Below are positions 56,249 through 58,406 of a DNA stretch of 64,000 bases, piece after piece; position 1 is the stretch's first letter; every line of letters starts with the position of its first letter. The stretch comes from an uncultured Dehalococcoidia bacterium (GTDB lineage: Bacteria; Chloroflexota; Dehalococcoidia; Lucifugimonadales; GCA-2712585). The DNA lies in contig OX638324.1 in NCBI GenBank assembly GCA_951812825.1, positions 1,425,141-1,489,140 of the forward strand, given 5' to 3'. The translations under genes were made by a program, and so were the position numbers. The notes below the pieces were generated by a model. It worked only from the letters and a program-made list of their open reading frames with translations, ran no database searches and was not told the DNA's origin.

Positions 56249-56815
56249 CTAGGCTCGGGGCATCAGCTCCGAAACTTCCACTCCGGTAAGAACGGCAACA
56301 ACGGGGTCGGCCAGTTGGCCGGCCCTTTCCTTTACGCCATCACGGTCTAGGGCGCCGACTGGGTGGTGGGTGTAGATAACGGGGAAGTCGGGAGCGCCCC
56401 AAGTTTCCGCCATACCCTTCGCCGTGACCTCAAACCGGTCGGTGCAGATTACGGCTGCGGGGATGCCTGCCTTCTCAACGTGAATTCCGTCGTGCACACT
56501 GCACGCGCTGCAGGACCCTCAATCACCCACCGCGACAATTGCTCCGTCGCACTCCTCCGCTATCTGCCCCACCACCTGGGGGTCGGCGGGCTTGGAGGCG
56601 GAAGGCTTGCGATGGTACAGAGCCACGGAGGTCTCGTATCGGTCTTCCAGGATGGTGGCCAGGTCTTCCAGAAGCTCCCTGGCGTTGGTCTTGCTGTCGT
56701 CGATGAGGCCGATTCGCTTGCCGCGGATGTCCATAAGCCTGGGCGCAACGTTAAAGCTCGCCACCAGGGGTTGAGTAGTGGGGTCTACCAGGTTGAAAGC
56801 GCCGTTCTTCTTCAT
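56249..56815 (-). CDS. UGSC-family selenoprotein (in-frame UGA read as selenocysteine)
   Basis: A 188-residue protein in which codon 99 is TGA (56521-56519). Both sides are one frame: KRIGLIDDSKTNARELLEDL... DGAIVAVGD, then U99, then GSCSACSVHDGIHVEKAGIPAAVICTDRFEV. The motif U-G-S-C(102)-S-A-C(105) is exactly that of the UGSC family of (seleno)proteins, where the first residue is Sec or Cys. It is a thiol/selenol redox motif; the reaction is unknown. The predicted SECIS hairpin 56491-56505 begins 13 nt past the UGA. AAGGAG precedes the ATG. It is the last gene of an operon with a family partner (56897) and a GlcG-like gene (57999). A standard translation would split it into two false genes. 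Confidence 0.88.
56491..56505 (-). promoter_or_regulatory. Predicted bacterial SECIS hairpin
   Basis: On the minus strand CGTGCA-GTG-TGCACG, a perfect 6-bp stem with loop GTG. The loop starts 19 nt after the UGA and begins with G, matching the bacterial SECIS rule (loop 16-37 nt from UGA, G among the first two loop bases). Functional proof is lacking. Confidence 0.65.
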
Positions 56816-56848
56816 GTTTCGCTCCTTTTGGTGGTTCTGCGGATTTGC

Positions 56849-56896: not shown

Positions 56897-57970
56897 TTAG
56901 GGTGGGGGCCAGTGGATTCGGCGGGTCACCGAAGTCGAGGAGACTTTGGGTCCCCAGCTGGGAATGACCGCCATGTGAGAATCCTCCGCGCCACCAGCGA
57001 ATACCAGCATTATATCCTCTGGAGAGAGAATAAGCTGCAGGAATTCGTCCTCGTCCCTGTCAGTTATGGAGCCATCCAGCGCACCGGCCCGCTTCAGGTC
57101 GGCGAGGGAACGCTTCAGGCGGGGGTGCAGGTAGCGACGGACATCGTCCTTCGTCCAATCCTCCCAAACATCGCTGGTGCCGGCGAAGACTATTGCTACC
57201 TCTCCCTGGCGCAACACTTCCGAAGTATCGCCAACGGAGCCGACGGAAGCCATGGAGGTGCCGAGGCTGGATATGACATCGGCGGTTGCGTAGAGCATGG
57301 TCTGCGGCCTGTTGCTGGACCGCACCTGACGCGGGCCCTCACAGGCGAAGACGGTGACGGCGCTGTCCCCTTGCTTGAGGCCGCGCTCCACGTGATGGGG
57401 AGTCCAGTGGGTCCCGGCTTCGTTTTCGGCGATGCAGTAGCTGAACTTGCCCGGGTGGCCGAGGATGGTGCGGTCGAAGAGGCCAGGGATGGCGGCGCAG
57501 GTGTTCATCAGGATGAGCCGAACGGCCCGGCCAATGGTAGAGTTGGCGCGGTTGCCGGGGCCGAACAGGTTGTTGCGACTGTTGATGCCGAGGGCGGGAA
57601 CCACGGGGCCGTTGACGATGACGAGGATGCCGGCGCCGCCAAGGCTGGATGAGGGGCCGATGAGGTTGAAGGCGGGATCGAGCATGGCCTCCGCCGTGGC
57701 GAGCACCACGGGGAAGTACTCCGGCTGACAGCCCGCCATGACAGCGTTGGCGGCGACTTTGCCGACGGTTACCTCCCGGCGGCGCTCAGGCAGGCCGCCG
57801 ATGACTTCGTCAGCGGGTCGCTGTCCGACGGCTAAGAACTCCTCCACCCGCTGCACTGTGGGAGGCACTACGGGCAAACCGTCGGTCCAGCCAAGGGCGT
57901 AGCACTGCTCGACGGCCTCTACCGGGTCGTTCCACTGGGCCTGAACGAGGGAGCCTAATCCTGCGGTCAT
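56897..57970 (-). CDS. UGSC-associated large conserved protein
   Basis: A 357-residue protein with strong conserved-looking stretches: CYALGWTDGLPVVPPTVQRVEEFL, VGKVAANAVMAGCQPEYFPVVLATAEAMLDP, LVIVNGPVVPALGINSRNNLFGPGNRANSTIGRAVRLILMN and GHPGKFSYCIAENE. I recognise this family, from memory, as the usual neighbour of UGSC proteins; its biochemical role has not been described to my knowledge. It has no signal peptide. Cysteines at MAGCQ and FSYCIAE could work with the selenol of the partner. It is 81 bases upstream of the selenoprotein gene in the same operon. Confidence 0.75.
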   Translation of the reverse strand: MTAGLGSLVQAQWNDPVEAVEQCYALGWTDGLPVVPPTVQRVEEFLAVGQRPADEVIGGLPERRREVTVGKVAANAVMAGCQPEYFPVVLATAEAMLDPAFNLIGPSSSLGGAGILVIVNGPVVPALGINSRNNLFGPGNRANSTIGRAVRLILMNTCAAIPGLFDRTILGHPGKFSYCIAENEAGTHWTPHHVERGLKQGDSAVTVFACEGPRQVRSSNRPQTMLYATADVISSLGTSMASVGSVGDTSEVLRQGEVAIVFAGTSDVWEDWTKDDVRRYLHPRLKRSLADLKRAGALDGSITDRDEDEFLQLILSPEDIMLVFAGGAEDSHMAVIPSWGPKVSSTSVTRRIHWPPP

Positions 57971-57998: not shown

Positions 57999-58406
57999 CT
58001 ATTGTCCTACGGCGGCAGCGCCGGCGCCTGAAATCTCTTCGTCTTCCTCGCCGGACCCGCCGGCGGTGCCGACGGCGCCGACCAGGACGCCGTCCTTAAA
58101 GACGGGCATGGCGCCCTGCTGGGGCATGAAGCGTCCGTGGAACATTTGCTGGAGGCCGTGGGCCACGGGACGGGAGGAACGTTCCAGGAGCTCGCCGCTG
58201 GGGACGCCCTCGTAGGCGACGGTGGCGACGGCCTTGCCCCGGCTGCTTTCCGTCCACCACCAGATGGCGTTGTCCATCCTGGCGGCGGCGACCAGGTCGC
58301 CACGGGCGTCGACGATGGAGACGGCGACGGTGAGGCCGAGGCTGCGGGCCTTGTCGAAGGCTGCCTCGAGGATGTTCATACCGTCTTGCAGGGTGATGCG
58401 GGGCAT
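57999..58406 (-). CDS. GlcG/HbpS-like protein
   Basis: A 135-residue protein of the GlcG/HbpS family (ITLQDGMNILEAAFDKARSLGLTVAVSIVDARGDLVAAARMDNAIWW, then SRGKAVATVAYEGVPSGEL and GAMPVFKDGVLVGAVGTAGGSGEEDEEISGAG). Members bind haem or small molecules and often sit with glycolate, diol or corrinoid metabolism genes. It is the first gene of the UGSC operon, 28 bases before the next gene, so it may bind the substrate or cofactor of the selenoprotein system. Confidence 0.85.
   Translation of the reverse strand: MPRITLQDGMNILEAAFDKARSLGLTVAVSIVDARGDLVAAARMDNAIWWWTESSRGKAVATVAYEGVPSGELLERSSRPVAHGLQQMFHGRFMPQQGAMPVFKDGVLVGAVGTAGGSGEEDEEISGAGAAAVGQ

Follow-up and report, generated by a model that had tools for sequence, protein, structure and literature searches.

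A UGSC-family selenoprotein gene in a Dehalococcoidia genome, its near-constant partner gene, and an apparent distant kinship with the selenocysteine domain of GrdB and PrdB

Results

The window, a 64,000-nucleotide stretch of contig OX638324.1 from an uncultured Dehalococcoidia bacterium, carries on its minus strand the gene of a UGSC-family selenoprotein (56249..56815), which starts with ATG at 56815, ends with TAG at 56251-56249 and encodes 188 aa with selenocysteine (Sec) as residue 99. The sequence itself places a Shine-Dalgarno-like AAAGGAG (56822..56828, minus strand) 6 nt 5' of the ATG. Codon 99 is an in-frame TGA (56519..56521, minus strand), the sole stop in the frame before the TAG; the bases that follow, GGG TCC TGC AGC GCG TGC, keep the phase, and the frame remains open until the TAG at 56249. 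The read-through product around Sec is ...VGDUGSCSACSVHDGIHVEKAGIP..., where U is residue 99. Just past the TGA lies a bacterial SECIS hairpin (56491..56505, minus strand), with the stem CGUGCA/UGCACG (56505-56500 with 56496-56491) and the apical loop GUG (56499-56497). The downstream half of the gene has no start codon at 56518, and its first candidate start, GTG at 56497, overlaps the SECIS loop. Upstream, across a gap of 81 bp, is the gene of a 357 aa protein (56897..57970, minus strand), here called the partner, which has conserved cysteines at positions 81 and 179 and whose family is modelled in neither Pfam nor NCBIfam. An HbpS-like (PF03928) gene (57999..58406) on the same minus strand precedes the partner gene by 28 bp and possibly shares its operon; in our survey of neighbours at 80 loci it was not a conserved neighbour of UGSC or the partner.

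The initial annotation had described two abutting minus-strand frames in one phase, split by the TGA and flanked by unbroken family sequence, and had expected a standard annotation to report two short hypothetical proteins or a pseudogene. The frames lie as described over 56815-56249, and a standard gene caller sees exactly that pair. The Pfam UGSC model (PF24696) matches residues 9-177 and so covers both halves (E 3.2e-56, 190.6 bits against a cut-off of 25); the NCBIfam UGSC model (NF041046) scores 146.2 bits against a curated cut-off of 125. Because the family match spans the TGA, the frame reflects a real gene rather than chance.

Among 78 near-full-length homologues on GTDB contigs, the codon at residue 99 is TGA in 75 and Cys in 3, which settles whether Sec or Cys stands there in other members. 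The three Cys forms belong to a member of the Geodermatophilaceae, to Luminiphilus and to the haloarchaeon Natrialba asiatica. Residues U/C99 and C102 are invariant (77/77 homologues), so that the resolving Cys expected of the UGSC family is in place. The last motif cysteine, C105, is found in 45/77 only; of UGSCSAC, which had been proposed as the defining motif, the UGSC part stands as the motif of the family and the final Cys does not. In a phylum sample of 301 genomes, UGSC genes occur in 32, nearly all matches have exactly one in-frame TGA, and some genomes have many matches, up to 11 in one of them.

Passages of the 2008 GOS survey (PMC2398784) describe the UGSC family and rank it, by abundance, in the top five selenoprotein families of that ocean survey, and a passage of a 2026 review (PMC13188914) still counts its function as largely uncharacterised. 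The protein described here shares with the family (PF24696, NF041046) a whole-length match, the UxxC motif, Sec at that motif and a predominance of Sec over a few Cys forms. Nothing essential differs; this is a Chloroflexota member whose partner is a separate gene. It is a further member of a family known since 2008, not a new type of selenoprotein; of the initial claim of a selenoprotein of clear interest, the selenoprotein holds and the novelty stands only in part. Beyond the known family, the present analysis contributes the partner family and the GrdB/PrdB link.

The initial annotation had made its reading depend on selA, selB, selC and selD, and all four components are found in the same genome, a single contig of 2.47 Mb: a tRNA-Sec with anticodon TCA (76 bits, cut-off 47), SelA (550 bits, cut-off 268), SelB (350 bits, cut-off 242) and SelD (375 bits, cut-off 125). 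Because the SelD gene (G000:C1:1058509-1059423, plus strand) has an in-frame TGA within a CAGU motif, SelD is probably itself a selenoprotein. Across the phylum sample, SelA is present in 31/32 genomes with UGSC, compared with 244/301 overall. Two side observations concern neighbours of this machinery: a gene for a leucine-rich-repeat protein with repeated domains lies near tRNA-Sec in the same genome (L017:2640-4805), and the UGSC gene of Sheuella amnicola is followed, some 2 kb further downstream, by a SelB-like gene (L119:9763-11670).

The SECIS, the other feature by which the selenoprotein reading could be checked, was recovered as a covarying hairpin downstream of the UGA at 84 distinct homologous sites. 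Counted from the U of UGA, its six pairs join positions 16-21 and 25-30 around a loop at 22-24; this puts the hairpin just past the UGA; its apical loop is of the G/U type, and its stem is complete in the window. Ninety-six percent of stem cells are paired, and two-sided changes occur in five of the six pairs (59 cells), whereas slid controls reached at most 64% paired and at most 17 double-sided cells. The loop opens with GU in 77/84. We also scanned 103 UGSC genes in 45-nt segments and compared these with synonymous recodings. The mean folding-energy minimum fell on the segment that begins with the UGA (-16.4 kcal/mol, compared with roughly -12 in the other segments), and this segment was more stable than its recodings (-13.0 kcal/mol, p 1e-14); segments further downstream had no such excess. 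The support for the SECIS is comparative, because the mRNA of the window folded alone does not pick the hairpin as its minimum-energy structure and does no better than shuffles.

It is virtually certain, then, that the frame 56815-56249 encodes a UGSC-family selenoprotein. Two short frames in a standard gene call are also what a sequencing error, or the true stop of a decaying gene, might produce, and this explanation has a negligible probability against a TGA shared by 75 of the 78 homologues in many genomes of several phyla, a conserved SECIS and a frame free of any other stop; since independent genomes have the same TGA, an error for TGC or TGT is ruled out in practice. Some bacteria possess Cys-UCA tRNAs, and a suppressor tRNA might insert Cys or some other amino acid at UGA, which is just as improbable here, where the TCA tRNA scores as tRNA-Sec, SelA and SelD are present and SelD has its own in-frame TGA. 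On the conserved TGA, the SECIS and the tRNA-Sec, we reject sequencing error, pseudogene and Cys suppression.

Homologues of the partner adjoin UGSC in nearly every locus. In 80 loci on GTDB contigs, found from the partner alone, UGSC is present in 74, and in 67 it lies on the same strand within 700 bp of the partner, mostly at 0-150 bp; it is absent from six, two of which end near the locus edge. Of the genomes in the phylum sample with either gene, 31/33 have both. In several Chloroflexota the two form one polypeptide, UGSC first, which very probably corresponds to the 'UGSC/Unknown_1' fusion that a passage of the 2008 GOS paper (PMC2398784) mentions. We are confident that UGSC and the partner are a functional pair. 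Two Poribacteria loci have a member of the partner family and no UGSC within 6 kb; there, the partner possibly acts on its own or together with a subunit encoded far away.

No third conserved gene emerged beyond these two in the 80 loci, as far as crude gene calls allow. Neighbours in other genomes, read by eye, include short-chain dehydrogenases (SDRs), CoA transferases, amidohydrolases and tricarboxylate receptor proteins, and because of these the neighbourhood suggests small-molecule metabolism. In Natrialba asiatica, the Cys-form UGSC and its partner lie beside CoA-transferase-like and enoyl-CoA-hydratase-like genes, again by eye.

The partner itself has no Pfam or NCBIfam match, and none is convincing for any of its relatives. 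Among 77 homologues, C81 is conserved in 75 and C179 in 71, and several polar residues are invariant or nearly so; the conserved positions include N143, R148, E182 and W189. Its predicted structure is confident (pLDDT 91), and a fold search returned nothing above Z 5 and no clear relative. The top match was a class I fumarase alpha subunit (Z 5.0, rmsd 4.9, 175 aligned), an identity that we reject for want of any sequence relation; identity with GrdE is likewise rejected, at a profile probability of 0.3% against a rough GrdE alignment with a few wrong frames.

Profile comparison suggests a relationship of a different kind for UGSC. HHalign aligned it to the Sec domain of GrdB with a probability of 96% and an E-value, for this one single comparison, of 3e-9, with Sec aligned on Sec. 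With the motif masked the probability was still 81%, and 30 column-shuffled controls reached at most 10%. Apart from the UGSC model, just five of 18,950 NCBIfam models matched, namely GrdB/GrdF/GrdH/PrdB models, with every match placed over the Sec site (E 0.002-0.05); reciprocally, a Chloroflexota GrdB matches the UGSC model at E 4e-5. The homology spans about 80-130 residues and lies far under the curated cut-offs of those models: as full-length GrdB, the protein scores 17.3 bits against 602 (TIGR01917) and 14.2 against 65 (TIGR01918). PF07355 does not match the UGSC protein, and that model stops just before the Sec site. It is therefore well supported, at the level of sequence profiles, that UGSC and the Sec domain of the B subunits of glycine, sarcosine, betaine and D-proline reductases are distant homologues. 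By the same comparisons UGSC is not a member of the GrdB family, as the N-terminal part is missing and the scores are far below the cut-offs.

The likenesses and differences can be followed along the proteins. With GrdB/GrdF/GrdH (PF07355, TIGR01917/01918), UGSC shares Sec on Sec, the U-x-x-C-x-x-C pattern that a passage of PMC13188914 describes for GrdB (UGSCSAC here, UGTCTRC in GrdB) and the downstream (I/V)E..GIP and HP(L/I)G elements. However, the N-terminal domain of GrdB is missing from UGSC (188 aa, compared with about 430), and the UGSC partner, set against the same rough GrdE alignment, is unrelated by sequence to the pyruvoyl partner GrdE; the architecture of glycine reductase is therefore not conserved. 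PrdB (TIGR04483) is alike in being a small Sec subunit with UxxC that works with a second protein, and around the Sec site it is weakly homologous (E 0.045). The UGSC partner, however, does not appear to be recognisable as PrdA, and the same genome has a separate PrdB-like selenoprotein. Passages of the literature that name both UGSC and GrdB keep the two families apart and do not connect them, and in the passages that our literature search returned, no statement on the partner family or on a GrdB/PrdB link was found. A sequence search found no solved structure of a GrdB relative.

The AlphaFold2 model of UGSC (mean pLDDT 92) has five strands with a helix after each, and U99 stands at the start of the helix that follows the third strand. 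Structurally it comes closest to Rossmann, flavodoxin and receiver-type folds, a common kind that names no family. The predicted fold is thus an alternating beta/alpha one, Rossmann/flavodoxin-like and not a thioredoxin (Trx) core. Passages of PMC2398784 suggest a Trx-like fold for UGSC, and a passage of PMC13188914 lists it among Trx-fold proteins; such a fold is unsupported by the predicted model, in which a helix separates every successive pair of strands and the beta-alpha-beta-alpha-beta-beta-alpha core with its terminal beta-hairpin does not appear.

Discussion

Glycine and proline reductases use the B-subunit selenol to act on a substrate that is activated on a second subunit. Because of the homology with the GrdB/PrdB Sec domain, we propose a comparable selenol-reductase mechanism for UGSC and its partner. 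SelB, recruited by the hairpin at 56505-56491, would deliver tRNA-Sec, and the ribosome would decode the UGA of codon 99. UGSC would then form the small Sec-bearing subunit of an enzyme made of two proteins, and the gene at 56897-57970 would encode the other. The partner may hold or activate a small organic substrate, which the U99 selenolate would most likely attack and reduce, or reductively cleave; oxidised U99 would be resolved by C102 as a selenenyl-sulfide, and a thioredoxin-type donor would re-reduce it. A physical complex between the two proteins, the reductase chemistry and the class of substrate are what we infer here rather than observe. By analogy with the known reductases, we favour, with moderate confidence, the whole explanation of a two-subunit selenol-dependent reductase in small-molecule metabolism; taken by itself, selenol chemistry of the GrdB/PrdB type acting on a small molecule has in our judgement about an even chance.

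It could also be that the partner is the catalytic enzyme, weakly like the alpha subunit of class I fumarase, and that UGSC merely supplies it with electrons or repairs it. The conservation of C81, C179 and many polar residues would speak for this, as would the best fold matches, which are class I fumarases. Yet a Z of 5 lies in the chance range, a sequence relation to fumarases was not found, and the class I fumarase cluster requires three Cys, of which the partner conserves two. We regard a catalytic partner of this kind as unlikely.

About equally unlikely, in our view, is that UGSC acts as a thioredoxin-like thiol/selenol oxidoreductase or peroxidase in protection against oxidants. A UxxC redox motif that opens a helix would fit, as would the Trx-like fold suggested in the literature cited above. 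The confident model speaks against it, with its inter-strand helices, missing terminal beta-hairpin and Rossmann, flavodoxin and receiver-type matches, and the sequence homology points instead to GrdB/PrdB. Further, a dedicated large partner and as many as 11 matches per genome fit a diversification of substrates better than a general defence.

Returning to the two-subunit reductase, a broader reading is possible, which we offer more tentatively: UGSC and its partner may be widespread Sec-dependent reductases of two subunits that form a branch within the GrdB/PrdB superfamily, one whose substrate-binding subunit is new. Their range, on that tentative reading, would take in Chloroflexota, Proteobacteria, Rokubacteria, Acidobacteria and Actinobacteria, with a Cys form in a haloarchaeon. 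If it is true, paralogues within one genome would serve different substrates. The SECIS, the near-obligate partner and the link to reductases of known chemistry make the reaction of UGSC concretely testable; the partner family merits a model of its own, and the Trx-fold label of UGSC needs rechecking.

Some further selenoprotein genes may be recorded alongside these. The PrdB-like gene of the same genome (G000:C1:956000-956900, match from C1:956287, plus strand) has its in-frame TGA within LVPAUPVCHQSVG and matches TIGR04483 at E 1.7e-47, below the cut-off of that model. PrdB-like or related UxxC selenoproteins are common in Chloroflexota (L173, L174, L176, L178-L180), with motifs such as UPICHQSVG, UGLCNQSVG and UPLCHRTV, and Cys forms occur at two loci (L175, L177). 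In another Chloroflexota genome (G169; L161-L172), GrdB genes number eight or more and GrdE genes are also numerous, which is an unusual expansion.
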